From: Lepisosteus oculatus
Taxonomy: Eukaryota; Chordata; Actinopteri; Semionotiformes; Lepisosteidae
Direction: 5' to 3'
Assembly (NCBI RefSeq): GCF_040954835.1
Contig: NC_090699.1
Span: 13,757,817-13,821,816, forward strand
Length of the DNA: 64,000 nucleotides
Position 1 is the first letter of the stretch, and each line of letters opens with the position of its first letter. The notes under the pieces are model-generated. The model worked only from the letters and a program-made list of their open reading frames with translations. It did not search any database and had not been told where the DNA came from. Below are positions 29,374-54,027 of the stretch, piece after piece. A program made the translations under genes and the position numbers.

Positions 29374-32300
29374 ATGGAGTCTGGTCGCCCACAGCGTCTG
29401 TTTCTGATCGTCCTGTTTCTCCAGCAGCCCTCTGTCTCCAGACCAGGTACAGCTCCTCACCCTCACCCTCCCACTGACTCTCCAGGGCAGCGCGGTCCCG
29501 TTGCTTCAGGGTGAAAGTGCAACGCCATATCGTTATCTCAGCCTAGGGACTGTAGAAACCGTGTCGTTATCTCAGCGTAGAGGCAGTCGACGCCTTGTGT
29601 GAGAGTGAGAGTCTCGGAGTGAGTGTGTGACTGTGTGACAGTGAGGGTCTCAGTCAGGGTGTGTGGTTGTGTGAGAGTGAGAGTCTCGGAGTGAGTGTGT
29701 GACTGTGTGACAGTGAGGGTCTCAGTCAGGGTGTGTGGTTGTGTGAGAGTGAGAGTCTCAGAGTGAGTGACTGTGTGACAGTGAGTCTTAGAGAGTGTGG
29801 TTGTGTGACAGTGAGAGTCTCAGAGTGTGTGACAGTGTGAAATTGTGTGTTTTCTCTCAGTAACGTGTGTGGGTGTCTGGGACAGGTGATGTTGTGTGAC
29901 AATGTGAGTCTCAGTCTGTGTCTCATTCCTCTCTCCAGAGACGTTTCAGGTTCTTGGTCCAGCTGATCCTGTTGTCGCTGTGGCTGGTGAAGACACTGTC
30001 CTGCCCTGTTACCTCTCACCCAGGATCAGCGCTGAGGGACTGGAGATCCGCTGGTTCAGGGATGAACCCACTGAACCTGTGTTTTTATACCGCAAGCAAA
30101 GACCAGAGCTGCAAGATCAAGCCCTGACCTACAGGGGAAGAGCCGCACTGTTTCCAGAGGAGCTCAGTAAAGGAAACACTTCCTTACGACTGACACGGGT
30201 GCGAGGATCTGACCATGGGAGATACAAGTGCTTTGTCCGGTCTGTAAATTGGTACAATGAGGCTGTCATTCATGTGTCAGTCAGAGGTGAGTATCCTCCT
30301 CTCTTTATTCCCGGGAAAGATCATACCTGCAGGAGGACATGCTAGAGAGCGACAGGACAGGGAAATTCTTACCGAAAGTGGCCTAAAACTGCATTTTTGT
30401 GAGAAAATGACCAGTCAAGTGACCAGTATGATCTCATGAAAAGATACCAGTGATATAAGCACATGCGGTCTTTGGTCTGCTGGTTCAATTAAAGTTTTCA
30501 GTCTCTCTGATGCTGTGGTTGGCAGCTGAGAATGTATGTTAACACATTTCATCTAGAAGCGTGTTGAGCAAAGTGAAAGCGCTCCACAGCACCACACACA
30601 CACACACACACACACACAGGTCCAGGAGCACAAGGCCTGGAGGGCCACCTGTCTCCTCACAGCGAAGAGGAGACAGAGATGTAGAGTATGACACAGCCCT
30701 GTGGAGGCTACTGGGATGGCAGTAGGCTCACTCCACTGTATTCATCTGCGGGAGGAACTCGCTGTGTAGCTTCGTCTTTACATATAAAACGCAAACTTCC
30801 CAGAACTTGAACAATTAATGGAACCACAGGAGGGTTCTACACAACGCTGAATCAACACAAGTCACCTCATACACTATGTGACCCAGGGAGGAGGTGTATT
30901 AAGTAACTGTCATACATGGATAAATTGATTTAGTTAAAAAAAAGAACTGACCTCTATCAGAGTGCAATCATATAAATATAATGCCCAAATACTGAGCTGT
31001 ATGTTCAATATGAGAGTGTTTAATAATTTTTGTACTGAGAGAGTTCTATTTAATGGTGTACATTAAAAAAACATTAAAACTGTTACAGCACTGTTGATGC
31101 AGAGTGAGAGGGGTGGGGCGGTCTGGGGTGTCTGACAGCAGGAGAGGGGTGGGGCCGTCTGGGGTGTCTGACAGGAGGAGAGGGGTGGGGCGGTCTGGGG
31201 CGTCTGACAGGAGGAGAGGGGTGGGGCGGTCTGGGGTGTCTGACAGGAGGAGAGGGGTGGGGCGTCTGGGGTGTCGGACAGCAGGAGAGGGGTGGGGCGG
31301 TCTGGGGTGTCTGACAGGAGGAGAGGGGTGGGGCGTCTGGGGTGTCTGACAGGAGGAGAGGGGTGGGGCGGTCTGGGGTGTCTGACAGGAGGAGAGGGGT
31401 GGGGCGTCTGGGGTGTCGGACAGCAGGAGAGGGGTGGGGCGGTCTGGGGTGTCTGACAGGAGGAGAGGGGTGGGGCGTCTGGGGTGTCTGACAGGAGGAG
31501 AGGGGTGGGGCCGTCTGGGGTGGGAGACCTGATTTTTCTTCTTCTTCAGCAGCTAACCCATGACTGACTCTCTCCCTGCAGGGAAGACTTCAGCCTGCTC
31601 TTATAGGCATGCCCACAGCTATGTCTTGTTTGTTTACAGACTTCATTCATTCTAATGAGAGAGCCAGCTCCTGACAATCACACACTGGATTACATCATAG
31701 TATTTAATTATTGATTTGATAAAGGAAATCTGAAAGGGCAAAAGTTCTTTTAAATACAAATTACAGGATGGAAAACAACTCAGATACTCCACTTAAAACT
31801 CATATAAAAGGCAAAGCTGACTCTCAAATGTCCTTTCAGCTGTGGGCACCCAGACGGCGATCTCTCTGGAGACGCACCAGGCTCAGGGGGTCAGGCTGGG
31901 CTGTGAGTCTAAAGGCTGGTTCCCAGAGCCTGAAGTGGTGTGGCTGGACAGTGAAGGACAGAGCCTGACTGCCGACCCCACAGAGACGCACAGGGACAGC
32001 CAGGACCTCTTCACTGTGAGGAGACAGGTGACCGTGCAGCACAGCGCCACCAACAGGTTCACCTGCCGAGTTGAACAGCAGCAGCTGGACCAAGTGAGGG
32101 AGGCAGAGATCGACGTCCCCAGTGAGTAGCAGGGGCTCCTGTTCACAGCCTCAGGACGCCCTGACTCTGTGCAGCTCTGCAGCTGTGATGCTGTGTTTTC
32201 CAGGTGAACTCTTCCCCCGAGTCTCTCCCTGGATGGTGGCTTTCTGGGTGATCCTGGTCCTCGTGCTCTGCGCTCTTGTTGGTCTTGCTATGATCATGTA

Positions 32301-35300
32301 TCGCCATGTCACAGTCCATAGGGAGAGAGGTATTTGACCAGTTTCTCTTACTATTTTATTAAATCTGCTGAACATGACATTTTCCTAATATGATTGTTCA
32401 TTTGCTTTCATTGACAGAGAATCTTTCCAGAGAGAAAAGTAAGTGTTGTTTCTTCTGGGTGTCCTATGTTTTCTTTTGACTATTTCAGAACAATATTCTT
32501 GATGCTCAGTTGAGTGTTATCCTTTCTGGAAAATCTAGTTTCAGATATTTATGCCCCAGCCAGTGGTTCTGCTCAGGTTCTGTCACTAGTGTGATAGTAA
32601 GCAGTAACCCTGCTTAAAAACACACTGGATTTCAGGACTATCTAGTTTAATTCATCTAATTCTACACTTTCTCAATGGGAAAGAAAGGTATTGATCTGAA
32701 TTCTTACAGTGTTTTCCAAACCGTTTTCTGTTGAAAAGGTTTTCCTGGTGTAATTTACTGTTGTTTTGCTTTGATTGACAGATGCTCTATGTAAAGAGAA
32801 GAGTAATTACTGTCTTCCTTTGAAATCCAGGTGTCACGCCCTCTGCAGCCAGCGGGCCCTCCTTCTCTGTCCTGTCTCTCATTTCCGGTTCTCTGCTGTC
32901 CTTCCGGTGTTTCTCTCTCTCTGGGGCTATATATTTCCGGGTCTTTCAGTCTGTTTTTGCTCAGCATTGACATTGATGTCCTGAGACCCTCCTGGCACCA
33001 GGTCGCCCCACGTCCGCTACCTGAGGGCCTAGGTTTCTATACGGCTTCTCCTGAACAGCTGAGCCCGGCTAACCCCCGTCTCGCCGCTACGCATAGGGTC
33101 TTTTTGTCCTGTCCTGTCTTTCCACGGTTCGTCCTTTCCGACATCCGTGACACCAGGGAAGCAATATGACATTTTTCTTACAGAACTCTTCTTACATTAC
33201 TCTAACATTACCTCCAAAAACAGACCCCTGTCTGCTCTGGTGCTGAATTTGTCTCTCAGCATTGGTCCCAGTCAGTTCTTTCATCTGTAGTAATGTTGCC
33301 AGTGTGGCTATATCAGCTGCTCCTCATTGTTACTGGTCTGGGAGATACAACCAGCTTCCTGAGAGAATCAGAGTGAATCGCTCACAGGGACAGGCATGTC
33401 AGATTCATCACTCTTACACCTGTGGGTTTGTTACTTCATCACACAATTTATGCCAGAGCAAAAGGAAAGAAGTCAGAGCTCACTCACGTTATACAGCATG
33501 TGAGCATGTCTCTCCCTTATAAAAGGAGTTTGAAACAGATGTTTGGGAGAAAGGTACGTCCTCATAATAGAGGTGGACAGACAGAGTGACAGGGACAGAC
33601 CTGTCTTAGTGAGCACTCTCACACTACTGAGACAGATTTTCTGAAGAGTGTGCTGGGATTTTGTTGTGATGTCACAGCACAATAGACGTGGATGTGTTAC
33701 CACAGCACACAATGTATATCACAGCTGAAGAACAGAAACTGTTACTGATAGTCACATTATACAGACTTGAAACTTATTTCTTTCAAAATATAATACTGAC
33801 TTCATCTGAGGAGGAGTGTTTTTACACTCAGCTAATTTAGAATGTTTTTCCTGAAATCGAATGTCTCTTGATTTTTTTTTGTTCTTATACGTTGTTTTAT
33901 ATTCCGATTCTATTGTGTATTGAAATTCCTTAAATACACTAGAAGTGATTGTTGAAAGGAGCACTGCTGAAGACATTGTTGTGATCAGTCTCGTATCACT
34001 GAACTAAACCTCTTTTTCTTCTTTCCATTGTAGAACAGCTGATTGAAGACCAGGGTGAGTGTGTGTGTGCTGTGATGAATACTGTGTGTGTGCTGTGATG
34101 AATACTGTGTGTGTGCTGTGATGAATACTGTGTGCGTGCTGTGATGAATACTGTGTGCGTGCTGTGGGAAGTACTGTGTTTGTGTATTGTAGGGAGTACT
34201 GCATGTGTGTATTGTGGGGAGTACTGTGTGTGTGTATTGTGGGGTGTACTGTGTGTGTGCTGTGGGGAGCACTGTGTGTGTGTATTATAGGGAGTACTGT
34301 GTGTTTGTTGGAATATGGTGTGTTTGTTGTGGGGAATACTGTGTGTGTCTGTTGTGGGGAGTACTGTGTGTGTGTATATTCTGGGGAGTACTGTGTGTGT
34401 GCGCTGTGGGGAGTACTGTGTGTGTATATATTCTGGGGAGTACTTTGTGTATATTCTGGGGAGTACTGTGTGTGTGTATTGTGGGGATCAATTTCGATCA
34501 CTTGTTCAGTGGCGAGCGTGGCGCTCAGCTGTGTCTCTGGAAGCTCGAGAGGAGTCTGCACACTCGAGTATTAGCGCGCGCTGTATCGATGTAGCACAGT
34601 ACGTGCGCTGCATATTTGACACACAAACGCATTTTATTAAAATACAGAATATGAGAACCCGTCTCAAGCTTTCTGAAACCGATTAAGTAAATAACAGGGG
34701 ACACATTTACATCATTTTTAATTATTCCATTTTAATTCCCAATTTTTCAGTGCACACAACACATTTCCAGGGTCATCTAGCGGTACCACCTGAGGGCGCT
34801 CCACGTACCACAGTTTGAGAACCAGTGTTATAGAAGAATGACAGACCATAGTACTGCTGATAGCCCTGCTGAAGAGACAGCAGTAAACTGGGAACAGGCC
34901 TGTGTCACAGGGAGTTCAAACTGGGAACAGGCCTGTGTCACGGGGAGTTCAAACTGGGAACATGCCTGTGTCACTGGAAGTTCAAACTGGGAACAGGCCT
35001 GTGTCACGGGGAGTTCAAACTGGGAACAGGCCTGTGTCACGGGGAGTTCAAACTGGGAGTGGAACTAATGGTTCTTTTTCTGAAAACATTTGAGTTAAAC
35101 TCTGTTTAATCCTTTTTCCTGTGAGTGGGGTGCAGATCTCTGCTGGACTGACTGTTTGTTCTTGTTCTTTACCAACAGGAAGTGCTGCCGCAGAACGAGG
35201 TAAGCCATTTCTGTTACATTTCTGTTAACACAGTATTTTCACCTTTGAAACTTTTTTTTTGTTTCGGGTTGTAATTTTTTCTTTGTTTTCCATTTCAACG

Positions 35301-38300
35301 TGATCATAAATTGGATTTTTCGGTGGTTTATGGTGTTATCCTTAACTTCACAAGAATGTTTTTAAGAAAACCAGAGAACTAGTCGTTTCCTTCATGTGCT
35401 GAAAAGAAAAGAGAAACAATGTTTCGGATGTGGAGCCTTCTGCAGGCGTCAGAGTCTCCACACATCCACGCACTCGCCACCACATTCCAGCTGCAATTAA
35501 CCTATTATCCAACCACTTTCCCCCTTTTGTTTGACTTAACCCTTTCTACCTCACCTCATCTACTCACCTGAGCTATACAGTACCTCTCGCCGCCTGATTG
35601 TCTCGCTGCTCTTGGTTAACGATTCTGCCTTCCCACCTCCTGACCACGGTACTGCCTAATGATCTGGACTCTCAGGGTCTGAATCTGCCCCCTACTGGTA
35701 TCTGACAACAGGTGACACCTTCTTGAGACCCGAAGAACATCCACGGCCGGAAACGTTGTGACTCTTCTCTTTTCAGCATGGAATAAACGTTTGCTTGTTC
35801 CTCTGCCGCCGATGCATGCGGACGCAGCTTCCCACCTGAATTTCCCCCAAATGTACGGTATACAGTAGTTTAATCGTTAAATAATGAGCATCTCAGGCAA
35901 GGTGGCCGGTAATTCTCTCCACAACCACAAGAGTTCAAAGCGGTGTGAAGCCTGATGTCAGATAATATCAGCTGTGATGATCAACACAGACCATACAGAT
36001 AGGCTCCTCTTATCTAGAAAACAGTGGCTTACAGCCAGCTGCAAGCTAAACTCCTGGGGAACACCTGGGGTGTGTTCAGCATCTGTCCTGTATGTGTTCA
36101 GGCTATGCTATTGTCCCTGTGTGTCTGTGGGGCTGTAGGATGGTCTTCCTCACCTCTTTCAGTGCTTTTCGTAAATCCCTTCTACTGTTAACTGGCTTTC
36201 CTTATGTACTGTATCTGATTGTTCTTTCTTTCATTGACAGATACTCTTTCTGCAGAGAACAGTAAGTGTGTGTTTCTCTGTGTGACCAGTGACTCAGTTC
36301 GAATGCAGTAGGGTTTATCATGGCAGCCGTGCATCACTCTCTCTCTCTAAAGTTCGGCTCCATTCAGGTCTGGGTGCTTACTTTTTCATCACCTTACTCC
36401 TACTGTAGTCAACACTTGAGTCCTTCTTGCTGCAGGTATGACCCCATGTTTCACAGATACAAATCAATGATCAAATATTGTGATCCAACACAGAGAGGCA
36501 TCTGTACATATTCAGCACCCTGTAGCACTGAAGATGTGTGTTGTTGTGTTGAGTTATTCATTGTCAGTCCGCTCACCAGTACTCAGCTGGATTTACTGCT
36601 TTGACTAATGAAATGCTTGTGACCGATTTTTGTTGCTTCTTCTCATTGACAAATAAACTCTCCACACAGAATAGTAAGTATTCAACACTAATCATGCATG
36701 ACATGCATTCAATATCGTGAGCCTCTGAACTGAGGATCTGCTTTTTGATTTTCTGTTGTATTGTACACTCCTTAGGGAGTTGTTCATCTCTGTATGCAGG
36801 CTCTGTAAAATGATACGCAGTTTTGTTTCAACAGGAATTGCAAACAAAATCGATTATTAATTCCTTGTTTATGTTGTGAATGAATAGATATCAGTCCTGT
36901 GTTTTATACTACTAGACTTTAAAACTTTATCTTTCTTTCATCTGCAGGGAGTAGACAGTGTGTGTGTGTAGTGTAACACTGCTGCTGTGTTCATTGGGAG
37001 TAGACAGTGTGTGTGTAGTGTAACACTGCTGCTGTGTGCATTGGGAGTAGACAGTGTGTGTGTGTAGTGTAACACTGCTGCTGTGTTCATTGGGAGTCGA
37101 GTGTGTGTGTAGTTTAACACAGCTACTGTCTTCACACACGTGTCTGGGAGTACAAACAGACATGAGATTATTCACCTGTGTATTGTCCTTCTGTACAGAA
37201 CTGTTGCTTTCCTGTGTGTTTGTGGTAGCCATGTCTTTCAAATGTTGAGTGATTTTATAGAATTTGTGTTCAGCTGAGTCAGGAGCAGGAGTCAGTGTGG
37301 AGTGTGTAACGGACACGGACTGGAATCCGTGTCAGATCTTGTAGAAGACCCTATGCGATGCGGTAAGAGCTGGAGTAAACAGGAGGCGTGGTAAAAAGGA
37401 ACACACAGGGGTTTAATAGTGCACAAAATAATAGTGACAGTCCGTGAGACAGTGTACGGGGAAGACAAAACGGCATCCAAATCCAAACGGGTCCAAGGGC
37501 AGGTCAAAGCACAGTCCGAAAGTCCATAAACTGGAAATCCATCCTGGGACGCGACAAAGTTAAAATCCCCGGGAGGGGGAGCACACAGACAAACAAAACA
37601 TGGAGGTCCAAGGGTGACGGGGCGAGATCCTCCAGACCCCGGGCTCGGGAAGCGTGAGGTGTCGGGGATGAGGCCTATGCCCTCAGGAGACGGACGTAGG
37701 GTTTCCTGGTGCTAGGCGGGCCTCGCGACATCTTACCCTAATGATGAGCCCCGACTGGAGGAGCTGGTCTTTAAATAATAACGCTAAAAGGGTACACCTG
37801 GAGAGCTAAATGACACGAACAATAATGAGAGCAGTGGAGCGCCCTCTAGGGAGGGATGTCGGGCGTGACAGAGTGTGTGAAAGGGACAGAGTGACTCCTC
37901 ACTCCTCAGACACAGGAGAGGAGTCCTGTAGGAGAGACTCTGCTCTCAGGGAGATCCTGGAGAAACTGCTCTCTGTCTCACTGCTGTTTCTCTCCTCTTC
38001 CTTTGACAGAAGCTCTGAACAGAGAGATCGGTGAGTGTTTCTCTCATCACTGCTGTCCTTCATGTTCCTCAGTCCTCTAGTGCACAGTTTCTAGTGTTTG
38101 ATACAGTTCAGGATTTAGTGATGGTCAGTTTTGTTTCCACAAAATCTACAGTTCCAGCGTTGTAGTGTCAAGTGATGTTTAGGTGGTTTGTGGTGTTCTC
38201 CTTATTTTTTTCTAACCCACCAGTAAGAAATGTTACTCTTATATTAAGATGTTTGCAGACTTCAGTTAATCTGAATTTTCACCTTTCATGTTCTGTTTCT

Positions 38301-41300
38301 TTCTGTATTGAAACTCTTTAATTTTTCCTTTGACAGACTCTCTGACCACACAGAACAGTAAGTGTTTCCCATTACTACTTTCTTATGAATTATCGGTCAT
38401 CCTTTGCTGCACTTATTTCAAAGATGTTAGGATTTCTTCATGAGATATGTCTTATGTTTCTGTAACCATACACTTAATGTCCATTGATTTTGATCAGGTT
38501 TGTTGCCTTTTTGTTTCAAAACGTAATTATTTTATGTTTTAGAAATTATACCCTTGTTAACAGATGATTGCAGCATTTAGGTAGTGTGCATTTTAGTTTC
38601 ATACTTTCTGTAATTTGTTTTCAATTAAAATATAGTGAATGAAACAACTTATACACATTTATGAAAACAGCATTTTTTAAATTGAAGTAATTTGTGTTTT
38701 ATTAATCAAAGTAATTCTTAGTCCACCAGTGTGAATTTAGATTCCTGTCTGCCCCTTATCGAAATGCTTGTGTACAGATAGAGACAGACTAATGAGCCTG
38801 TCCAGCTGAGACAGATGTGTGCAGTGATTCATACAGAACTGCTCATGTTCCTCTTTCTGAAACCTGTCCAGTTGAACTCTCCTGAGTCTGATTTGCCTGG
38901 AATCTGAGTGTCCTGTGGGCAGGTGTGGAGTTAGAGGACTCTGCTGCAGTAACACTGTCAGCTCTCATTGCAGGGGTCTGCCTGTGCTCTCAGGGAGATC
39001 CTGTAGAGACTGCTCTCTGTCTCACTGCTGTTTCTCTGCTCTTCCTTTGACAGACACTCTGAACAGAAAGATCGGTGAGTGTTTCTCTCATCACTGCTCT
39101 CCTTCATGTTCCTCAGTCCTCTAGTGCACAGTTTCTAGTGTTTGATATAGTTTAGTTTATATTTTATATTTGAGTAATAAAAGATACTCTTATTAAAAGA
39201 TGATAGCCAATAGTATTTATAGCATTGAATTGGAATTTCTGTGCTTTCCTGTGTGTCTCTGGAAGTCTTGGTGGTCAGTTAGTTGTCTTGAAGTGAGTCA
39301 GGAGCAGGAGTCAGTGTGGAGTGTGTGAAAGGGACAGAGGGACTCCTCACTCCTCAGACACAGGAGAGGAGTCCTGTAGGAGAGACTCTGCTCTCAGGGA
39401 GATCCTGTAGAAACTGCTCTCTGTCTCACTGCTGTTTCTCTGCTCTTCCTTTGACAGACGCTCTGGACCAAGAGAAGAGTAAGTGTTTCCTACTGTTACT
39501 GGTTTTCTTTTCCTTCATTCTTCACTGCTGTAGTTTTAGTGTTTGATGTAGTTTAGGATTTGTGTCTGTTTTCCTTCTGTCCTCAAATCCTGTATCATGT
39601 AGTCCTGTATCGTGAGCTTCTGCTGTTAAACTGGTTTCTCTTTTCTCTGCAGGGGAGCTTACTAAGAAGCTGGGTGAGTAGTTTCTTTTTGTCAAACATA
39701 TTTATTACGGTTGTTTTCCCCTTTAAAATATTTTTGTCAGGGAGTGCAAAAGTCAAGGAAACACAGCTGTCCAGAACTTCAGTTTTAACACAGACAATAG
39801 TAAGATTTCGAACTACACAGACATGTTTGGCATATTATATTTTTAACAAGTGTGGACTTCTTTAAAAAGTCTGAATATGTTGGGACGTCACTGCTGAGTT
39901 TTCATCTTTGCCCAAGACTAAAGGTACGTTCCAGTCAAACTGTCTCTTTGGCGTGCTGAAAAGGCTGTGCTCCCGTGCTCACAAAGGAAAGTCAAGCAGT
40001 GTTTTCTTACAAGAGCTGCTCTGGCCTCGTCTTCGACAGGCCTGTGCTGAGGCCCAGCGATGAGCTCTCTGTTTGCCCCTCTCGCCACAGCGCTTATCTG
40101 ACATGGGGCCACACTGGCTCTGAACGTGAATGTGTTGCTGTATGACAGTGTTAGCAGAGATGGACATTCAGCTGACTCATGTTCCACTGTTTTGTTCTCT
40201 TTGACAGAATCTGCTTCTAAAGAGAAGGGTAAGAATGTTCCCGTGTGTCCTGAGTTGAGATGTTTTGTTGAATTAAAGAATTTGGCTCTTTTGCTTTCCT
40301 GTGTGTTTGTGGTAGCCATGTTTTTCAAAAGTTGAGTGATTTTATAGAATTTGTGTTCAGCTGAGTCAGGAGCAGGAGTCAGTGTGGAGTGTGTGAAAGG
40401 GACAGAGGGACTCCTCACTCCTCAGACACAGGAGAGGAGTCCTGTAGGAGAGACTCTGCTCTCAGGGAGATCCTGGAGAAACTGCTCTCTGTCTCACTGC
40501 TGTTTCTCTCCTCTTCCTTTGACAGACGCTCTGGACCGAGAGAAGTGTAAGTGTTTCTCTCATCACTGCTCTCCTTCATGTTCCTCAGTCCTCTAGTGCA
40601 CAGTTTCTAGTGTTTGATATAGTTTAGTTTATATTTTATATTTGAGTAATAAAAAATACTCTTATTAAAAGATGATAGCCAATAGTATTTATAGCATTGA
40701 ATTGGAATTTCTGTGCTTTCCTGTGTGTCTCTGGAAGTCTTGGTGGTCAGTTAGTTGTCTTGAAGTGAGTCAGGAGCAGGAGTCAGTGTGGAGTGTGTGA
40801 AAGGGACAGAGGGACTCCTCACTCCTCAGACACAGGAGAGGAGTCCTGTGGGCAAGTGTGGAGTTAGAGGCGTCTGCTGCAGTAACACTGTCAGGTCTCA
40901 CTGCAGGGGTCTGCCTGTGCTCTCAGGGAGATCCTGTAGAAAGTGCTCTCTGTCTCACTGCTGTTTCTCTCCTCTTCCTTTGACAGACGTTCTGACCAGA
41001 GAGAAGAGTAAGTGTTTCCCTCATCAATGATCTCCATCATGTTCCTCAGTCCTCTACTGCGCAGTTTCTAGTGTTTGATACAGTTCAGGATTTAGTGATG
41101 GTCAGTTTTGTTTCCACAAAATCTACAGTTCCAGCGTTGTAGTGTCAAGTGATGTTTAGGTGGTTTGTGGTGTTCTCCTTATTTTTTTCTAACCCACCAG
41201 TAAGAAATGTTACTCTTATATTAAGATGTTTGCAGACTTCAGTTAATCTGAATTTTCACCTTTCATGTTCTGTTTCTTTCTGTATTGAAACTCTTTAATT

Positions 41301-44300
41301 TTTCCTTTGACAGACTCTCTGACCACACAGAACAGTAAGTGTTTCCCATTACTACTTTCTTATGAATTATCGGTCATCCTTTGCTGCACTTATTTCAAAG
41401 ATGTTAGGATTTCTTCATGAGATATGTCTTATGTTTCTGTAACCATACACTTAATGTCCATTGATTTTGATCAGGTTTGTTGCCTTTTTGTTTCAAAACG
41501 TAATTATTTTATGTTTTAGAAATTATACCCTTGTTAACAGATGATTGCAGCATTTAGGTAGTGTGCATTTTAGTTTCATACTTTCTGTAATTTGTTTTCA
41601 ATTAAAATATAGTGAATGAAACAACTTATACACATTTATGAAAACAGCATTTTTTAAATTGAAGTAATTTGTGTTTTATTAATCAAAGTAATTCTTAGTC
41701 CACCAGTGTGAATTTAGATTCCTGTCTGCCCCTTATCGAAATGCTTGTGTACAGATAGAGACAGACTAATGAGCCTGTCCAGCTGAGACAGATGTGTGCA
41801 GTGATTCATACAGAACTGCTCATGTTCCTCTTTCTGAAACCTGTCCAGTTGAACTCTCCTGAGTCTGATTTGCCTGGAATCTGAGTGTCCTGTGGGCAGG
41901 TGTGGAGTTAGAGGACTCTGCTGCAGTAACACTGTCAGCTCTCATTGCAGGGGTCTGCCTGTGCTCTCAGGGAGATCCTGTAGAGACTGCTCTCTGTCTC
42001 ACTGCTGTTTCTCTGCTCTTCCTTTGACAGACACTCTGAACAGAAAGATCGGTGAGTGTTTCTCTCATCACTGCTCTCCTTCATGTTCCTCAGTCCTCTA
42101 GTGCACAGTTTCTAGTGTTTGATATAGTTTAGTTTATATTTTATATTTGAGTAATAAAAGATACTCTTATTAAAAGATGATAGCCAATAGTATTTATAGC
42201 ATTGAATTGGAATTTCTGTGCTTTCCTGTGTGTCTCTGGAAGTCTTGGTGGTCAGTTAGTTGTCTTGAAGTGAGTGAGGAGCAGGAGTCAGTGTGGAGTG
42301 TGTGAAAGGGACAGAGGGACTCCTCACTCCTCAGACACAGGAGAGGAGTCCTGTAGGAGAGACTCTGCTCTCAGGGAGATCCTGTAGAAACTGCTCTCTG
42401 TCTCACTGCTGTTTCTCTGCTCTTCCTTTGACAGACGCTCTGGACCGAGAGAAGAGTAAGTGTTTCCTACTGTTACTGGTTTTTCTTTTCCTTCATTCTT
42501 CACTGCTGTAGTTTTAGTGTTTGATGTAGTTTAGGATTTGTGTCTGTTTTCCTTCTGTCCTCAAATCCTGTATCATGTAGTCCTGTATCGTGAGCTTCTG
42601 CTGTTAAACTGGTTTCTCTTTTCTCTGCAGGGGAGCTTACTAAGAAGCTGGGTGAGTAGTTTCTTTTTGTCAAACATATTTATTACGGTTGTTTTCCCCT
42701 TTAAAATATTTTTGTCAGGGAGTGCAAAAGTCAAGGAAACACAGCTGTCCAGAACTTCAGTTTTAACACAGACAATAGTAAGATTTCGAACTACACAGAC
42801 ATGTTTGGCATATTATATTTTTAACAAGTGTGGACTTCTTTAAAAAGTCTGAATATGTTGGGACGTCACTGCTGAGTTTTCATCTTTGCCCAAGACTAAA
42901 GGTACGTTCCAGTCAAACTGTCTCTTTGGCGTGCTGAAAAGGCTGTGCTCCCGTGCTCACAAAGGAAAGTCAAGCAGTGTTTTCTTACAAGAGCTGCTCT
43001 GGCCTCGTCTTCGACAGGCCTGTGCTGAGGCCCAGCGATGAGCTCTCTGTTTGCCCCTCTCGCCACAGCGCTTATCTGACATGGGGCCACACTGGCTCTG
43101 AACGTGAATGTGTTGCTGTATGACAGTGTTAGCAGAGATGGACATTCAGCTGACTCATGTTCCACTGTTTTGTTCTCTTTGACAGAATCTGCTTCTAAAG
43201 AGAAGGGTAAGAATGTTCCCGTGTGTCCTGAGTTGAGATGTTTTGTTGAATTAAAGAATTTGGCTCTTTTGCTTTCCTGTGTGTTTGTGGTAGCCATGTT
43301 TTTCAAAAGTTGAGTGATTTTATAGAATTTGTGTTCAGCTGAGTCAGGAGCAGGAGTCAGTGTGGAGTGTGTGAAAGGGACAGAGGGACTCCTCACTCCT
43401 CAGACACAGGAGAGGAGTCCTGTAGGAGAGACTCTGCTCTCAGGGAGATCCTGGAGAAACTGCTCTCTGTCTCACTGCTGTTTCTCTCCTCTTCCTTTGA
43501 CAGACGCTCTGGACCGAGAGAAGAGTAAGTGTTTCCTACTGTTACTGGTTTTCTTTTCCTTCATTCTTCACTGCTCTAGTTTTTGTGTTTTATATAATTT
43601 AGGATACTGAATGTGTGTGATTGTATGTTGTGTAGTATTGTAATACTAAAACAATAAAAGATAAAGCTAAATAATGAAGATTGATTGGGTAATAGTCATA
43701 TGAAAATGTAAAAATACTCTTTCATTTATTTTTATCTTTATATATTGAGAAGATAAAAATGCCTCTTTCTCTGCATGAATATTTTCAATACTTCTGCACT
43801 TGTGCAGATTACACAAAACACTTTCTCACTTCCTGACTGTACACACCTGCGATTGAGCTAATTCTAGAGTTTATAGAACTGAGAGAAAGGTGTTGAACTC
43901 AGTTCTTTTAAAACCTGTTCAGTTTTAAATGCAGGCAAAAGACCACTGACTGCTTGAAGATCCTAGAAAAAGGGCTGTCCGAGAGCAGGCTTGTAGATAT
44001 CACCTGTTTGGTCTTTAACTGAAGAGCAATTTATAATGAAATAGATGGAGATCTGATTGCATCAAGCATTACTTAATAATATTGAATTTCGAGATCATAC
44101 TGTTTGGCAATCGAACCACATCAATATTGAGTCCAAAGTGGCAAATTAAGAGATAAACAAGAGATACGATAAAATCATTTTATTGGCCATATACAGTTTC
44201 TTGCATCAGGAATGTGTCTTTTCCCAGACCCCAGCTTGCTCTCCATGAGACACACAGACAGGGAGAGAAGCTGAGGGTCAGAGCGCAGGGTCGGCCATTT

Positions 44301-47300
44301 ATACAGCACCCCTGGAGCAGCTGGGGTGAAGGGCCTCGCTCAGGGGCCCAACGGAGTAGGATTCCTCTGCCGGCCATGGGATACAAACCAGCAACCTTCC
44401 AGCCACAGGTGCAGATCCCGAGCCCCAGAGCCACCACTCTGCCCGGTGTGTCATAAATTGAGATATGACACTTCCTGCTGCTCGGTTAGCGGTCCGCATT
44501 TGGAACAAATACAAAATAACATCCTCCAGTTTTCACTGGTAATGGACTGCAATAAGTACTGGATGTGTTGCTGCTTCCCTTCATTCCCTTGTAGAAGGAT
44601 TTACTTTGAATATTCCATTAAAATGCAATATTATGCACCATAACTATTCAAGAAGACCTGTGTTTTGCTACTGTAGTTTGATATTAAATAAAATGGAAAA
44701 ACATGGGTAGTTCAGAATCCTAAATACCGAACCTGTGTGAACCACACAGAAGAGGTTGAGTTTTCACATATATAGATCGTTTTGTCTCAACAGAGCTACA
44801 GGTAACTGGCAAAATAAAGGAAACACTGGAATAATTGAGGAATACAAAGTATATTCAAAACAGGTGCTTCCACATGGGTAGAGACTGTAGACCCAGAGAG
44901 AGAGTCTCTCCTGTAGCTTCAGGAATACAGGGAGGAGGAGAGACTGTAGACCCAGAGAGAGAGTCTCTAATTCAGCTACAGGAATACAGGGAGGAGGAGA
45001 GACTGTAGACCCAGAGAGAGAGTCTCTCCTGTAGTTACAGGAATACAGGGAGGAGAGACTGTAGACCCTGAGAGAGAGTCACTCCTGTAGCTTCAGGAAT
45101 ACAGGGAGGAGGAGAGACTGTAGACCCAGAGAGAGAGTCTCTCCTGTAGCTACAGGAATACAGGGAGGAGGAGAGACTGTAGACCCAGAGAGAGAGTCAC
45201 TCCTGTAGCTACAGGAATACAGGGAGGAAGAGAGACTGTAGACCCAGAGAGAGAGTCTCTCCTGTAGCTTCAGGAATACAGGGAGGAGGAGAGACTGTAG
45301 ACCCAGAGAGAGAGAGTCTCTCCTGTAGCTACAGGAATACAGGGAGGAGGAGAGACTGTAGACCCAGAGAGAGAGTCTCTCCTGTAGCTACAGGAATACA
45401 GAGAGGAGGAGAGACTGTAGACCCAGAGAGAGAGTCTCTAATTCAGCTACAGGAATACAGGGAGGAGGAGAGACTGTAGACCCAGAGAGAGAGTCACTCC
45501 TGTAGCTACAGGAATACAGGGAGGAGGAGAGACTGTAGACCCAGAGAGAGAGTCTCTCCTGTAGCTACAGGAATACAGGGAGGAGGAGAGACTGTAGACC
45601 CAGAGAGAGAGTCTCTCCTGTAGCTACAGGAATACAGGGAGGAGGAGAGACTGTAGACCCAGAGAGAGAGAGCCACTCCTGTAGCTACAGGAATACAGGG
45701 AGGAGGAGAGACTGTAGACCCAGAGAGAGAGTCTCTCCTGTAGCTACAGGAATACAGGGAGGAGGAGAGACTGTAGACCCAGAGAGAGAGCCTCTCCTGT
45801 AGCTACAGGAATACAGAGAGGAGGAGAGACTGTAGACCAAGAGAGAGAGAGTCTGGGTCTGTGGTCAGCTGTATTCCTGTAGCTACAGGAGAGGCTCTCT
45901 CTCTGGGTCTACAGTCTCTCCTCCCTGTATTCCTGGATATTGTGGTCAGCTTTCAGTGTATAAACCCCTTATTACATCTAAAACTGAACCTTTGACTGTA
46001 AACTGGTACAGAGAACACAGGCAGGGATCTACTGAGCAGTGGAAACAAGTCATATGGACAAGTGACTCATCCTTCACTCTGTTCTCAGCAAGAGGATGAG
46101 TACATATGTGGCACACGCCTAGAGAAGCCTACAGGCACCAGTGGACGAGTACACGTGGGGCACACGCCTAGAGAAGCCTACAAGCACCAGTGGACGAGTA
46201 CACGTGGGGCACACGCCTAGAGAAGCCTACAGGCACCAGTGGACGAGAACACGTGTGGCACACGCCTAGAGAAGCCTACAGGCACCAGTGGACGAGAACA
46301 CCTGTGGCACACGCCTAGAGAAGCCTACAGGCACCAGTGGACGAGAACACGTGTGGCACACGCCTAGAGAAGCCTACAGGCACCAGTGGACGAGAACACG
46401 TGTGTCACACACCTAGAGAAGCCTACAGGCACCAGTGGACGAGAACACGTGTGTCACACACCTAGAGAAGCCTACAGGCACCAGTGGACGAGAACACGTG
46501 TGTCACACACCTAGAGAAGCCTACAGGCACCAGTGGACGAGTACATGTGGGGCACACGCCTAGAGAAGCCTACAGGCACCAGTGGACGAGAACACGTGTG
46601 GCACACGCCTAGAAATCAAAGCCGCTGTGAGTGATCATGTTCATCGTACTGTAAAGTGAAGCATTTCTTTCCTGGATGTCCGTAGGACAGGAGTGATCAC
46701 TGAACAGTTTGATGAACATGAAGACAATGTAAACCATATGCAATGGCCAACCCAGTCACCAGAGTTCTAGTATAGAAAGCCAAGTGAGTCACTTAACACC
46801 CAGCAACACACTTCCCCAAACAGAGAGAGGGAGAGAGCTGCTCCGTTCTGTAGAGACACGTGGGGGATTGTAGTATGGGCAGCATATATACTGTATATAC
46901 TGTACATGTACATTCTACAGCATATTATATATACACTACTGCTATTATTTTTATTATAATGTTGCAAATGGGTGGTTATGAAACTGGTGGAAATCGGAAA
47001 TTGACCGAGTGGTTTACAAACAAGGCGTTTCAGAGGCCTAACGTTCTGGACACCCAGAAAACCCCAGACTGCTACCTAGAGAGGCCATATAAGAGATGAG
47101 CTGCCTTCTAACTGAATACAAATCAACTTACAGTTACATCTCTCTCTCTGCACCCCAGATGCCACAAAATTAATGTTTTGTATACATCCCTATATCCCTG
47201 TCCTTGAAAGTGCACCCTAAGCAGGAAAGACATTTCTAACTGAGCTCTCTTTTTCCCAGGAAACCCAAGTTACCTAAAAACACAGAACAGCTCTCTCTCT

Positions 47301-47325
47301 CTCTCTCTCAGGGTTCAGATACTGA
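29374..47325 (+). CDS. Butyrophilin-like receptor with 19 heptad exons and no B30.2 domain
   Basis: Coding exons 29374-29446 (signal peptide, LFLIVLFLQQPSV), 29939-30286 (IgV: VLPCYLSP, IRWFRDE, DHGRYKC), 31840-32121 (IgC: GCESKGWFPEP, FTCRVE) and 32204-32329 (TM about residues 245-267) are followed by 21-bp exons at 32418, 32782, 34034, 35179, 36241, 38010, 38337, 39054, 39458, 39653, 40208, 40526, 40987, 41314, 42031, 42435, 42631, 43186 and 43504, then a last exon at 47312 (RFRY, stop). All introns are phase 1; the total is 413 aa. It is a type I membrane protein of the B7/BTN family. Butyrophilins are known to have heptad exons next to the TM; 19 is unusually many. The intracellular part would be a long coiled coil (DALDREK, RELTKKL, ESASKEK). 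No SPRY exon was found before the next gene. Ig and TM exons are sure; use of every small exon and the final exon is inferred from splice sites. Confidence 0.85.
29595..29840. repeat. TG-rich minisatellite in BTN-like intron 1
   Basis: Degenerate repeats of GAGTGTGTGACTGTGTGACA and GTGAGAGTCTC, close to the IgV exon acceptor. Confidence 0.8.
30597..30619. repeat. CA microsatellite
   Basis: Simple (CA)n run in the intron after the IgV exon. Confidence 0.9.
31085..31525. repeat. Minisatellite, 33/36-bp units
   Basis: About 12 copies of a G-rich unit containing GTCTGACAGGAGGAGAGGGG, in the IgV-IgC intron. Strand-asymmetric G-runs could form G-quadruplexes. Confidence 0.9.
32832..33152 (+). mobile_element. 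Solo LTR 2 (321 bp) with 5-bp target duplication
   Basis: Runs from TGTCACGCCC to CCGTGACA, flanked by CCAGG at 32827-32831 and 33153-33157. It contains a TATATA-type core near 32925 and a CTATGCATAGGG-like block near its end. 51831-52110 is a diverged inverted relative. It lies in the BTN-like gene about 30 bp after the second heptad exon. Confidence 0.8.
34055..34490. repeat. TG-rich minisatellite starting at a heptad-exon donor
   Basis: Copies of GTGTGTATTGTGGGGAGTACT-like units begin directly at the donor of the heptad exon ending at 34054. Confidence 0.85.
34865..35060. repeat. Minisatellite, 33-bp unit, 6 copies
   Basis: Unit contains TGGGAACAGGCCTGTGTCAC. Reading NWEQACVTGSS repeats in frame but has no exon support. 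Confidence 0.9.
35390..35800. mobile_element. Family Y element with inverted ends, copy 2
   Basis: The left end (GCTGAAAAGAAAAGAGAAAC, then AATGTTTCGG) is mirrored by the right end (GGAAACGTTG, then CTTCTCTTTTCAGCATGGAAT). About 300 bp of unique sequence lies between. No ORF. Lies between heptad exons 35179 and 36241. Confidence 0.6.
36652..36672 (+). pseudogene. Decayed heptad exon of the BTN-like gene
   Basis: Context TTGACA-AATAAACTCTCCACACAGAATA-GTAAGT looks like the other heptad exons, but the acceptor AG has become AA. It should not be spliced in. Its donor is intact. Confidence 0.55.
36945..37125. repeat. Minisatellite, about 45-bp unit, 4 copies
   Basis: Unit contains GTGTAACACTGCTGCTGTGT. 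It begins just after a CTGCAG acceptor-like site and precedes a decayed copy of the sequence found around heptad exon 40208. Confidence 0.85.
37305..37870 (-). mobile_element. Solo LTR 3 (566 bp) with 5-bp target duplication and paralogous empty sites
   Basis: Runs from TGTAACGG to GGCGTGACA, flanked by GAGTG at 37300-37304 and 37871-37875. Paralogous positions at about 39315, 40390, 40790, 42290 and 43365 read straight through GTGTGGAGTGTGTGAAAGGG, giving exact empty sites. In antisense it has TG...CA ends as expected for an LTR. Confidence 0.88.
38090..40545 (+). repeat. Tandem segmental duplication, copy 1
   Basis: Matches 41068-43523 at an offset of 2977-2978 bp, with only a few differences seen by eye (a base near 39300, a codon in the exon at 39458, and one extra T near 42481). 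Carries heptad exons 38337, 39054, 39458, 39653, 40208 and 40526. Confidence 0.95.
41068..43523 (+). repeat. Tandem segmental duplication, copy 2
   Basis: Second copy of 38090-40545. Carries heptad exons 41314, 42031, 42435, 42631, 43186 and 43504, all with intact AG and GT borders. It adds 42 residues to the stalk in frame. Confidence 0.95.
43525..44162 (+). other. Start of the last BTN-like intron, nothing recognised
   Basis: AT-rich intron sequence without further heptad exons. Confidence 0.5.
44163..44455 (+). repeat. Dispersed fish repeat (GAAGGGCCTCGCTCAGGGGCCCA block)
   Basis: It resembles a common fish repeat ending in a block about cataloguing 'GCAACCTTCCAGCCACAGGTGC'-type sequence near CCAGAGCCACCACTCTGCCC. 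Recognised by likeness only; non-coding. Confidence 0.5.
44876..45945. repeat. 56-bp palindrome-bearing minisatellite ending in an inverted unit
   Basis: About 17 copies, each with the perfect palindrome CCTGTAGCTACAGG and an arm pair GAGAGACT / AGTCTCTC. After 45845 the array turns into an inverted unit and stops. It lies in the last BTN-like intron. Confidence 0.9.
46090..46615 (+). repeat. 49-bp minisatellite derived from transposase-like sequence
   Basis: About 11 copies of a unit containing CGCCTAGAGAAGCCTACAGG. One frame of each unit reads WHTPREAYRHQWT, like the WR.P.EAY region of Tc1-type transposases. The 49-bp length shifts frame at each copy. It leads directly into a transposase fragment. 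Confidence 0.75.
46616..46790 (+). mobile_element. Tc1/mariner-type transposase fragment
   Basis: Translation includes FDEHEDNV and MQWPTQSPEF, resembling the WP.QSPDLNPIE motif just before the last catalytic acid of IS630-Tc1-mariner transposases. The reading frame stops soon after. Dead fragment. Confidence 0.6.
46950..47100 (+). repeat. Dispersed repeat, family X, copy 3
   Basis: Shares the ATTGACCGAG and CACCCAGAAAACCCCAGAC blocks with 18170-18560. Truncated. Confidence 0.6.
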
Positions 47326-48955
47326 GCTCCAGTCAGGTTTGGTCTGGATGATCATGAAGTCAAGAAGAAGACTCATCCTCTTCACCTGCTAAACGTACAA
47401 CACCTGGTTCTTCCTCACGATCCACCGACATGAAATATGGCTACAGAAGGTATTGAACATAGAAAGGCACTGTGTTTGACTAAATGGTGTAAACTTTCAG
47501 AATAATTTCATGCAGGAGCGTCCTGTTTCTTAAAGAACAAAGTCGTTCAATGCCAATCACTGACCACTTTATTAGGATCACAGAATATTCGTCTCAAGTA
47601 AGTCGGGATCGCTTGACGCACAGGGCAAGATGGCTGTCTTTCACTTTTACACTAATACATCGAATTCACCCTCCTGGAAAGTACGCAGCTTGGACTGTCC
47701 TGACAAGCCTGCTAGCAGCCCCGATGTCCTTGTGCGGAAAGATAATGGATGTTGTAGCGATGTGATATTTCAGCTGCACATTAAACGGATTGACTTGCTC
47801 CTTCAAATGCAACAACAGTTCTGATTATATTAGATGTTTCATCTCTGACGCTTTCACTGAGCTGCATGGCAACGATCGACAATGATCCACATATTTGCTG
47901 ACCATTTAAAGTAAAGGCTACATGTGCTGTAAACTCTTAAAAAACTTTTCAGATGCAGTGTAATTGTTTCTTATGTTTATGGTTACTTTTGTTAGGAAAT
48001 GTAAAACAATACAGGATTAAAGGTAACATCTAGGATGGGGTGGCAAGTCCATATTTAGGGGTGTCCACCCCTCCTCTGGCTACACCCCTGTGACAGGGGT
48101 ACGCTGTACCCCAGCTGAGGGGTGGCGAGACCAGACCTTGAGAAATACAGTCAGACAAACACATTGTGATCAAGGGGTGTCCTAGAGCAGTGGAAATCTC
48201 TACGGCGTTATTAGTGGCTCTGTGACATGGTTCCTGTTGACCCAACACTGCACACTGTTCCAGTGACAGAAACGTTTCTAAAGGAAAAAACCTCAGTCAA
48301 GGACTGACTCAGCATCTACAGTATGTGCACAGTCTGGGTGGTGTTGGACTGCTGTGTCTTGTGAGATTGTGCAGCCTGTTTTATCACCTGGGTCACTAGG
48401 AGAGTGATAAAGGGACTTGTTCTAATCTTTAAAAAAACCGCCATGTTTTAACAAATTCAGAATAGCATTTCTTTATATGTGACGTATATACACTGCAACA
48501 CAAGTCCTGATTAAAAGTAAAATATTGGTGCTTCTATCACAGTGGAAGATAAAATAAAAGATTCTGCCTGGAGCGCTTTGGAAGTGTTTTTAAACTGTTT
48601 TGTCTGTGTATTTTAACACCTCTTAAAGTGTAAAAATGTATTTACATGCCTGAGATGTAAAGACTACAATCCTGTTTTTTTTGTAAGTTATAAATTGTTA
48701 TTCTTCTTAAGAATGCACAGAATGCACACTGTTCTTTTTAAAATCTGCACGTGTTCACATACAATCAGATCAGATTAGCTACTAGCAGTTGAACCATATA
48801 CAGTTTGTACAGTAGATGGGCAGAATGACCTGTTGTTTAGAACTGTTGTTATATTCACACGCACTAGAGTGATTACTGATGTGAACAGTTTGTATTGGAA
48901 AGTAGTGATAGTGTAGTAACACTGCAGTACTAGTTCAAGCAGGCAGCTGCGTCAG
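47326..48955. other. 3' flank of the BTN-like gene, no gene recognised
   Basis: AT-rich. 48000-48250 (CCACCCCTCCTCTGGCTACA region) looks like an unclassified transposon remnant. No convincing exon or RNA gene was seen. Confidence 0.45.
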
Positions 48956-48959
48956 CATG

Positions 48960-49115
48960 CGCAGACTGCAAAGGAACAGGTAGAGGTTTATTCCGGGCTG
49001 AAAAGAGAAGGAAGAAAACACAGCGTTTCGGCTGTGGAACCTCACACCCGAAGAAGACTCCACAGCCGAAACGTTGTTTCCTTTCTTCTCTTTTCAGCCT
49101 GGAATACACCTTTAC
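48960..49115. repeat. Family Y element, compact inverted repeat (copy 3)
   Basis: The left arm (GGGCTGAAAAGAGAAGG, then GCGTTTCGGCTGTGG) is mirrored by the right arm (CCACAGCCGAAACG, then CTTCTCTTTTCAGCCTGGAA). Only about 25 bp separate them, so the RNA of either strand can fold on itself. Confidence 0.75.
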
Positions 49116-50401
49116 ACTGCAGTGCTGCTCATGGTAACTGCATCGACAGCACAAAAACACATCATTTTCCTCACTGTAGCTCTGTCACAGTTCAGCTACA
49201 CACCAGCAGGTGTTACACGTCATGTTGACAGTGTATTTTATCATTCTGTTAGGAATCTGCAGTCTGTTGGAATTCAATAAGCTTTTTGCCAGTGTATTTG
49301 GGTTTGTATTTTTGAATAAAAGTTAAACAATTGTTTTAAAGTGACTTTTTTCCCCTCTCTTGTGATTGGCAGGTGTTAATCACATGTTGAAAGGTTGCTG
49401 TATGAAAAACTCTAGATCAGAGACAATGGGCAACACCTGGCTAGTATCGACATCTCCAGTTCTTGGGAGCTTCCCAGCAGGAAAGGAGCTGAGGTGTAGG
49501 GGTTCTGAGACACACCGATCAAAGGAATTGGTTTTGGTGTATCTTGTTTAACTAAGCTCTCTGTATATCATTAATAAGCATCAACAATCAAGGAAGATCC
49601 ATACAAAGAGAGAAGAAGGAGTGGCAGAGGAGAGGGGAGAAGGGATGGAGAAAATAAGATGAAGAGACAGGGCCAGGCGGGAGGTCCTTGTTCTGATCAG
49701 CCTTTAAGACCGGATTTAAGTATTTGAACCTTGTTAAGACGGCTTGCCATTCTGTTGTTTTTAGGAAATAGAATCCCCTCTGTTAGAAACGTTCTCTCCT
49801 GGTTGGTGGGCGCATCTTTAGAAAATGGAGATATGTTCCCATTCTATTAATTCTGTAGCACCTGGGTTGACAGAGAGTTTGGGCTCTAGGTGATATTCTG
49901 TTTGCTGCAGGAGGCAGGACTGTCGCTCTTGCTGGCCTGTGCCACAGTCCCCCATTGTCAGGGTGAAAACCTACAGGCTTGGTGCAGGAAGCAGACTCTT
50001 CTGGGACGCTGCTGAAGGTGCTCCTGCTGGGCTTCATTGCCAGTGCAGCCTTCGGGGGAAGTCACACAGCACAACCCCTTCAGTTTCAAGAGTTACAACG
50101 GGAATTTCTTGACCTTTTACTCAGTTGGCAGACAAATACTGTACCTGCAAAGCTGCTAAAACCTGATTTTTTCAGGAAGAACTATGTGAATATTTTAATC
50201 AGGTGACAACAGCAGATAAACATCTGAAGGACACTTCCTTATACTTTATACCCTTATATACCCTGTTAAATAGTAACAGGATAGTTTCCGCCATTTTTGA
50301 CAGTGTGATAGAGACCAACATGAGGCAGCAGATGCTGTACGACTTCAGTTGAAGAGCACAACATTTACACAAGACAGCTTGAAGACACACACACACACAC
50401 A

Positions 50402-50446
<45 letters not shown>

Positions 50447-51130
50447 AGCCAGGTTCCTCAGAGGATCTCCAAGCCACATGTTGCCCAGAGACGGAGGTCT
50501 GAAGGCTCCTGCATGCCTGATAGTCAACACTCTCCCGCGTCACTTACCAGCTAAGCGTGGCCTCACTATACACCCGCCCTCCGGAGGACAACCAGAACCA
50601 CGCCTGAGGTGGGTAATGGTGTATACTTGCCTTTGAATACTACTCATTAAAGCCACTGTGGCTATGGATTATAATGATACTCCAGAACCATGAAGTGGTA
50701 TTACAGAGACAATAATCTATAAACATGTAGGATCAGTGGTGTTATGAACCAGTCACTGCTCCTGAATGATTTGATCTCCCTCCTCCCTCTCTGTGCACGA
50801 CAAGCCGGGGCCCTGCAGAGAGAGAAGGGTGAAAGTGAAAGGAGGAGAGGAGAGGAGCGACAGAGTAAAGGATGAGTTTTCCTTCACCCGGCCATCACGT
50901 TCTTGAAAACTTCCTGAAACGTGACGAGCAGGAGGAGCGACAAACAGTTCAACAAGTAAAAGCAGTGGTGGGCCAGGAACTTAATTATCACTCCAGCAAA
51001 GTGATGTTAAAATGAATCATGAAAGTTATTGAGTTGATGTCTTCCGAGCTGTAATATCCACGGATCAGCTATTACAGTTGGTCTTGCACACTGCCTTCAT
51101 CTAGAAGCAAATAGTTTCACTTCATATTAA
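49116..51130. other. Intergenic spacer with AC microsatellite at 50386-50447
   Basis: No gene recognised. A GTGAAAGTGAAAGG stretch at 50829-50842 resembles an IRF site but lies about 2 kb from the likely TRIM-B first exon. Confidence 0.45.
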
Positions 51131-51135
51131 TGTTC

Positions 51136-51395
51136 ACCCAGTTCACTTCCGTCTTTCGGATGAGACGTTAAACCGAGGTCCGGACTCTCAGTGGTCATTA
51201 AAGATCCCTGGGCATTTCTCGATAAGAGTAGGGAGTTATCCTGGTGTCCGGGCCAAATTGTCCCCCTCGGCCTTTACCATGGCCTCCAAATTGTCCCCAT
51301 GTCTGATGGACTGGTGTCCTGTCCAGGGTGTACCCTGCCTTGCGCTCGTTGTTTGCCGGGTAGGCTCCGCATGGTATCAAGTGGTTTTGCAAATG
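51136..51395 (-). mobile_element. SINE-like repeat copy D (inverted, partial)
   Basis: Contains CTTTCGGATGAGACGTTAAACCGAGG, the reverse complement of the family's central block, followed by GATGGACTGGTGTCCTGTCC, the motif multiplied in the 24.6-26.0 kb minisatellite. Confidence 0.7.
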
Positions 51396-51830
51396 ACCTG
51401 ACATGACCCAGTTCACTTTGCCTGCTAGGGATCACGGAAGGGAGGTGGGTATTGGAACAGACGGATCGCTCACAGGCGCTGTGTGAGCTTAGGAGCCCCA
51501 GTTCCCACAGATCCCAGACAGGAACAGAACCGTACAGTAACGCTGATCAAAGTGAAAGTCTCTAACAGTGTCTCTAACCCTAACCCCGGCCAGGCTCCTT
51601 TTCTAACCCCAGAGTCTGAGCTCATGTAAGAGTGCTCGAACAGACAGCCAGTCAGCCAAGATGGCAGCAGATGCTGCTCCAGCTCAGGGCACTTCGAAGT
51701 CTGGGAGTCCTGCAGGTTTCAATTGTGAACAGGAAAGAAACTGAAAACTCCTCGAGACAACCTTGTGTACAACGAGACGCCGTACACGAGAATGTTCATA
51801 CTCATTCTGATGATCTTCAGCTGCTGTTGG

Positions 51831-53905: not shown

Positions 53906-54027
53906 GTGGTTGTGTTTCTGTCTGCAACTGAATACTTTTACCTTCAGGTGTTTATTTAGGTGTTGTATTGAGATGGTGCTGATCTTCTCCTCTGATCATC
54001 TCTGGTTCTGCTTCTCTGTGCTCAGGA

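Follow-up and report, generated by a model that had tools for sequence, protein, structure and literature searches.

A butyrophilin-like (BTN-like) gene of Lepisosteus oculatus carries, directly behind the exon for its transmembrane (TM) segment, an array of 18 exons of exactly 21 bp, each encoding one heptad, and no B30.2 domain was detected between the end of this array and the next gene. The gene lies on the plus strand of the 64,000-bp stretch of DNA analyzed here (the window, C4:13757817-13821816); coordinates are window positions unless prefixed C4. Part of the array is present as a nearly identical doubled block, the heptad exons vary more than the related introns that flank them, and the motif that typifies them is rare across the 1.2-Gb assembly. 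The best reading of this anatomy, and one that we hold to be somewhat probable, is a coiled-coil tail like that of the chicken BG proteins on a BTN ectodomain, a design principle that is itself known.

A BTN-like gene with an array of heptad exons

The identification of the gene as BTN-like, first proposed in a sequence-only reading of the window, is borne out by its domains. A leader exon, whose coding part runs from the ATG (MESGRPQRLFLIVLFLQQPSVSRP-) and ends in phase 1 (29374-29446, from direct reading and in-frame joining), is followed by an IgV exon (29939-30286; Pfam V-set, E 3.3e-11, and splice sites) with only two cysteines and by an IgC exon (31840-32121), both in phase 1 at either end. 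The IgC exon matches the Pfam model C2-set_3, “Butyrophilin subfamily 3 member A2-like, Ig-C domain”, at E 1.2e-21. Among the best 60 of 356 PDB sequence matches to the part of the protein up to the TM, the closest relatives are CD276, BTN1A1, and BTN2A1. The exon for the connecting peptide and TM (32204-32329) was placed by in-frame joining and by comparison with a paralogue (gene 2, described below); the single TM segment, read from the sequence by eye, is succeeded by the heptad exons. The donor of this exon, gtattt, is weak, but it is identical in gene 2. Leader, IgV, IgC, TM, and 18 heptads join into one open frame of 402 aa.

A loose scan for AG, 21 bp, and a GT-type donor gave a candidate list over the region 32418-43524. 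The strict rule was an AG acceptor with at least 12 pyrimidines among the 17 upstream bases, a GTRAG donor, and 21 bp with an open phase-1 frame. It returns exactly 18 exons, all on the plus strand and with phase-1 borders on either side; together they span 32418-43524. Other exon lengths from 12 to 45 bp yield one candidate altogether (18 bp) on the same stretch and strand, and 300 dinucleotide shuffles of the array stretch gave a mean of 0.28 strict exons and a maximum of 3, as compared with 18 in the real sequence. As counted from the candidate list, 13 distinct sequences occur among the 18 exons.

All 18 were placed by the strict scan and by in-frame joining. In order, they are h1 (ENLSREK, 32418-32438), h2 (KQLIEDQ, 34034-34054), h3 (GSAAAER, 35179-35199), h4 (DTLSAEN, 36241-36261), h5 (KALNREI, 38010-38030), h6 (DSLTTQN, 38337-38357), h7 (NTLNRKI, 39054-39074), h8 (DALDQEK, 39458-39478), h9 (RELTKKL, 39653-39673), h10 (ESASKEK, 40208-40228), h11 (DALDREK, 40526-40546), and h12 (YVLTREK, 40987-41007). 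The remaining six, which are also supported by block alignment, repeat earlier members: h13 (41314-41334), h14 (42031-42051), h16 (42631-42651), and h17 (43186-43206) are copies of h6, h7, h9, and h10, respectively, while h15 (DALDREK, 42435-42455) is an h8 copy with one change and h18 (DALDREK, 43504-43524), the array end, is an h11 copy except for its last base.

An nhmmer profile built from the 18 exons with their flanks and run over the window recovers two further heptad-like exons, both on the plus strand. The first (NALCKEK, 32782-32802, E 1e-4) has a weak donor, gtaatt, and is a doubtful nineteenth member; the second (36653-36673, E 0.037) is a relic with a dead acceptor, CAA. The evidence supports 18 exons, with 32782-32802 raising the total to 19 should its weak donor function. 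Of the 19 phase-1 exons of 21 bp counted in the sequence-only reading, 18 thus hold under the strict rule and the nineteenth does not.

Duplication and divergence within the array

Alignment of the array to itself identifies a doubled block on the plus strand. Copy 1 (38085-40545) holds the five exons h6-h10 complete and copy 2 (41062-43523) the five exons h13-h17; each also includes the first 20 of the 21 bases of a sixth heptad exon, h11 and h18, respectively. The two 2.46-kb copies differ by 2 mismatches and 1 gap over 2461 bases, and identity drops abruptly on both sides. Given this near identity, the exon count is partly either very recent or an assembly effect: the block appears to be either a very recent duplication or conversion, or one locus placed twice by the assembly. 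If one locus was placed twice, the true count would be about 11 or 12, the number left after subtraction of one block, and the tiny number of differences between the copies is what such an artefact would produce. We nonetheless consider it unlikely, as the inter-copy stretch (40546-41061) is not itself near-identical to either edge and contains its own exon, h12, and as 40915-41061 and 37938-38084 differ at 17 of 147 positions. That symmetric exons can be gained or lost in frame, a further proposal of the sequence-only reading, agrees with both the phase-1 borders and the doubled block.

A related flank is common to eight heptad exons (h5, h7, h8, h11, h12, h14, h15, and h18), which allows exon and intron divergence to be compared. 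Among the 28 possible pairs, which are not independent, an exon excess over flanks was observed at one-sided Fisher p <0.01 in 16. Since flank extension stops where divergence begins, this pairwise test favors low flank rates. A cleaner, fixed-length test was restricted to h5, h7, h11, and h12, which are distinct and share both flanks; h14 was dropped as a copy of h7, and h8, h15, and h18 have another downstream intron. Variable columns number 10/21 in the exon, 4/69 upstream, and 9/75 downstream (13/144 for the flanks combined; one-sided Fisher p 5e-5), and the highest non-overlapping window holds 5 variable columns as compared with the 10 of the exon window. By codon position, variation affects 8 of the 14 exon columns at positions 1-2, as compared with 2 of the 7 at position 3. 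Over six distinct copies, 11/21 exon columns vary against 4/69 upstream (p 7e-6). This excess of exon over intron divergence is the pattern expected from diversifying selection on the rod, and selection is the cause that we infer from it.

The main rival for the divergence invokes no selection and has, in our estimation, an appreciable though lesser chance of being correct: short exon patches would have been swapped between units while the introns were homogenized. Mosaic exchange between units is evident from the upstream, exon, and downstream segments, which group the units differently. For example, h5, h11, and h18 are identical over 60 upstream bases although the exon of h5 departs from the other two at 6 of its 21 bases, and h18 has the same downstream intron as h8 and h15. 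However, tracts that homogenized both flanks should also have covered the 21 bases between them, and it is the exon window that is most variable.

The 3′ end and BTN-like relatives in the genome

In the sequence-only reading the heptad exons lay between the TM and a tail. The array does follow the TM exon; a tail exon is not established. A tblastn search with a neighboring TRIM B30.2 found no B30.2 from 43524 to 53983, and Pfam found none in 10 of the 21 plus-strand open reading frames (at least 75 aa) of that interval. The TRIM gene that follows is on the same strand, with a RING exon starting near 53983, and has its own coiled coil and B30.2. This B30.2, at 58155, was considered as the tail of the array gene and rejected, because exons for RING/B-box and a TRIM coiled coil precede it on that strand.

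Downstream of the array, 14 acceptors have a good pyrimidine tract, with 47312 (17/17 pyrimidines) and 49098 tied for the top rank. Acceptor 49098 is probably part of a dispersed repeat, because its DNA also occurs beside gene 2, and an acceptor near 44797 resembles part of a transposon. As a guess, a terminal exon may run on the plus strand from 47312 to 48570 (end approximate), closing the protein with RFRY and a stop and including the 3′ untranslated region. This candidate is based on its pyrimidine tract and on polyadenylation signals at 47780, 48016, 48510, and 48553.

Across the assembly, an IgV-IgC-TM query returned at least 151 matches at E 0.001 or better (150 of 265 candidates scored). 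Their distribution over C4 and other contigs indicates that the array gene belongs to a large family. A dense cluster of BTN-type IgV sequences is present at C4 3.49-4.83 Mb, with more groups on C13, C14, and C21, and the BTN-like family is strongly expanded.

A second BTN-like gene, gene 2 (C4:13860524), is situated about 73 kb downstream, with protein identities to the array gene of 85% (IgV), 98% (IgC), and 90% (TM). At the DNA level, 503 bp that begin shortly ahead of the IgC acceptor and end shortly past the TM donor are 97.6% identical in the two genes, and the sequences beyond that donor are unrelated. In coordinates, the IgC-TM segment with its intron at 31834-32335 pairs with C4:13861710-13862212, and sequence outside it is unrelated or more diverged (86% in the IgV region). 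The segment looks like a recent gene conversion of the membrane module. Gene 2 carries a single strict 21-bp exon and, downstream of this module, a 27-bp exon encoding a peptide also present in the TRIM genes and a B30.2 exon, without an intervening RING.

Other relatives lack the array in the stretches scanned. A third BTN-like gene (IgV 56%, IgC 33%) and a fourth IgV (55%) are located further to the right and show no strict 21-bp exon there. Three relatives elsewhere (L029-L031, IgV 61%), which share IgV and IgC with the array gene, each have one 27-bp exon and no strict 21-bp exon in the 10 kb examined for each, and B30.2 lies within 10 kb in two of the three. The strict scan of a 314-kb neighborhood found, besides the 18, one exon on the plus strand, that of gene 2, and two sites on the minus strand, both within IgV exons. 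Across the whole genome, the motif TTGACAG + A..CT[CG] + 15 + GTRAG, which fits 12 of the 18 heptad exons and would miss a diverged array, occurs at 13 places, namely 12 in the array and one on C17; the reversed control gave one. On this survey, and as far as seen, a short stalk plus B30.2 is the ordinary layout in this genome, and the array is confined to a single gene.

These relatives also bear on the possibility that the array gene is an ordinary BTN in which the heptads are a long spacer and the B30.2 exon is unrecognized or lies beyond the TRIM gene. Gene 2, with its near-identical IgC-TM and its 27-bp and B30.2 exons, has the expected layout, as do two of the three relatives elsewhere. 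Outside the window, on its right flank, a B30.2 coding region at ~66178-67025, split by ~330 bp, has no assigned RING exon and could be a relic, an orphan, or a distal exon. On the other side stand the absence of any detected B30.2 up to 53983 and the position of the next one behind the exons of the TRIM gene. In addition, macaque BTN3A2 is without B30.2 (PMC6790196; statements on published systems here rest on excerpts of the cited papers), and an absence in the array gene is therefore not odd. We judge an ordinary BTN to be improbable and continue to favor a tail in which heptads replace B30.2.

Several features of the neighborhood were recorded in passing. The BTN-like gene is flanked by two inverted TRIM genes with RING, B-box, coiled coil, and B30.2, at 12941-20904 (minus) and 53983-58703 (plus), and further RING and B30.2 copies lie to the right of the plus-strand gene. 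Long minisatellites with units of ~40-80 bp occupy 1249-5111, 8438-9922, 24576-25896, 44880-45849, 46107-46613, 52889-53901, and 58878-59652. A fragment at 63018-63347 (minus) is weakly similar to reverse transcriptase (Pfam RVT_1, E 0.0019, below the cut-off).

A proposed BG-like tail and its implications

With the split codon counted as heptad position 1, codon 3 is Leu in 15 of the 18 heptads and Ala in the other 3. Hydrophobic residues accordingly occupy codon 3 in 18/18, as compared with 2/18 at codon 4 and 5/18 at codon 7. Codon 6 is acidic (Glu or Asp) in 12/18, and proline is absent from all 18. The 3.5-residue hydrophobic amplitude is 0.93 versus 0.24 in shuffles, none of 5000 reaching the observed value, so that the heptad periodicity of a two-stranded coiled coil is present; for the first 11 heptads alone, 3 of 5000 shuffles reach their amplitude. 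Against the PDB, the rod has six weak sequence matches (E 0.03-0.07) whose titles read as coiled coils, and several Pfam coiled-coil models match below their cut-offs.

The closest published parallel is the chicken BG family (B-G antigens; zipper protein, BG10-like). In both, numerous 21-nt exons come after the TM exon, each with its first codon split and each encoding one heptad. BG tails of one haplotype have 13-36 exons of 21 (sometimes 24) nt, with a mean of 26 over 14 genes (PMC4046983), a second source gives 27-38 repeats (PMC5938342), and exon number varies between genes and haplotypes. The 18 exons found here fall within the range of 13-36. An unprecedented number of heptad exons was accordingly rejected, and the earlier statement that the count goes far beyond the few described fails against BG. 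It is valid against mammalian BTNs, which have just a few heptads (PMC5938342), and, so far as they were surveyed, against the other BTN-like genes in the assembly. The BG molecule has no B30.2, and none was found here from 43524 to 53983; a TRIM region, which adjoins the BG region in a paper that compares BG with BTN (PMC8813856), is nearby in both. In chicken, selection is supported on tail variation rather than on the ectodomain, a soluble BG tail displaces tropomyosin, and intron read-through shortens the tails (all PMC5938342).

The two systems differ in several respects. BG has a single IgV, whereas the array gene has IgV and IgC (31840-32121); BG forms a disulfide-linked dimer through an extra cysteine of complementarity-determining region 1, whereas the two cysteines of the array-gene IgV are taken as the canonical pair; and some BG exons are 18 or 24 nt, whereas the array here is strictly 21 bp. 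The mammalian genes BTN1A1, BTN2A1, and BTN3A1-3 share the IgV and IgC sequence and very short heptad exons after the TM, and differ in having few heptads and typically B30.2, as compared with 18 heptads and no B30.2 found between 43524 and 53983. Macaque BTN3A heptads are in exons 6-8 or 5-8, and isoforms lacking one heptad occur (PMC6790196). Heptad number after the TM is a notable difference between squamate BTNs and human BTN3A1, with B30.2 kept (PMC12841164). The word “heptad” does not occur in the excerpted text of a duck BTN paper (PMC10845735), and the listings and excerpts from searches of PMC full text, which leaves out subscription journals and preprints, show no report of such an array outside chicken BG.

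On this basis, the array gene would encode a single-pass BTN-family receptor with leader, IgV, IgC, and TM, in which 18 cytoplasmic heptads replace the short stalk and B30.2. Transcription, splicing of all heptad exons, dimerization, the rod, and its partners are predicted from the DNA. The heptads amount to 126 residues, about 19 nm if they form one straight helix, and two chains could zip via the codon-3 leucines into a parallel coiled coil projecting into the cytosol. Such a rod may act as the chicken BG tail does, as a dimerizing rod or a scaffold under the membrane for cytoskeletal or signaling partners. Exon duplication, deletion, or skipping would alter it by whole heptads with the frame kept, because every exon is 21 bp with phase-1 borders, and the related intron units around many heptad exons would allow unequal exchange.

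A number of observations weigh against this reading. If codon 3 is core position d, then codon 7 takes position a, and it is polar (Lys, Asn, Gln, or Arg) in 13/18 heptads and Ile or Leu in 5/18. The rod proposed in the sequence-only reading is therefore plausible on its codon-3 residues and periodicity, yet the other core position is mostly polar and the coil may be loose. BG repeats, moreover, have mostly hydrophobic codons 4 and 7 (PMC5938342), a register different from the codon-3 leucines found here. The minus strand of the repetitive array stretch also gives 7, 8, and 5 “exons” at 31, 33, and 42 bp, with further single candidates at 20 and 28 bp, which shows that multiplicity by itself does not prove real exons. 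As repeats can multiply chance exons, the case is built on the precise length, the phase, and the open frame that exons with unlike flanks have in common. By eye, h2, h3, h6, h9, h10, and the pair h1/h4 have flanks unlike those of h5-type units, yet all are 21 bp and phase 1. Repeats mistaken for exons were considered on these grounds and set aside: multiplicity is partly repeat-driven, but the exons with differing flanks keep length and phase. For the divergence, 12 of the 28 pairs miss p 0.01, recent copies among them, the compared copies are related, and patchy conversion could mimic selection. Macaque BTN3A1 and BTN3A3 show no non-synonymous variation in the excerpted account of their heptad exons (PMC6790196), which argues that heptads are not generally fast. 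At the 3′ end, a B30.2 unlike the TRIM query could escape tblastn, and the end itself is a candidate in a gene read from DNA without a transcript.

Decay would fit part of this record, as one of the 20 heptad-like exons is damaged and another is doubtful. A decaying gene or unused array, in which heptad exons pile up by local duplication and are mostly not spliced into protein, would also accommodate the relic exon, the two weak donors (32782-32802 and the TM exon), and the recent near-identical duplication. We consider this distinctly improbable. The 18 exons retain phase, open frame, and consensus splice sites; open frames are likewise kept in the Ig exons and TM; Leu or Ala occupies codon 3 throughout; and the IgV non-synonymous divergence of 0.089 against the paralogue, versus a synonymous divergence of 0.171, suggests constraint.

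A BG-like tail on a BTN ectodomain thus remains our preferred reading, and the genome survey leans toward convergence over shared descent with BG. The fuller account is tentative and, taken as a whole, more doubtful than the tail itself: outside birds, one BTN of a large family would have gained, probably independently, a BG-type rod instead of B30.2, its heptad exons diversified by selection against homogenized introns and its rod length prone to rapid change in frame, whereas the paralogue that shares its membrane module carries a single heptad exon and a downstream B30.2. As far as seen, the new elements are IgV and IgC with a BG-length tail and no B30.2 found, the isolation of this gene in a large BTN family, the neighbor with the same membrane module, and the exon-over-intron divergence. 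BG-type tails have been described in chickens. A BTN ectodomain joined to a BG-like tail, with a gene nearby in which a near-identical membrane module carries another tail, would be a natural module swap for studying the function of the rod and any selection on tail diversity.

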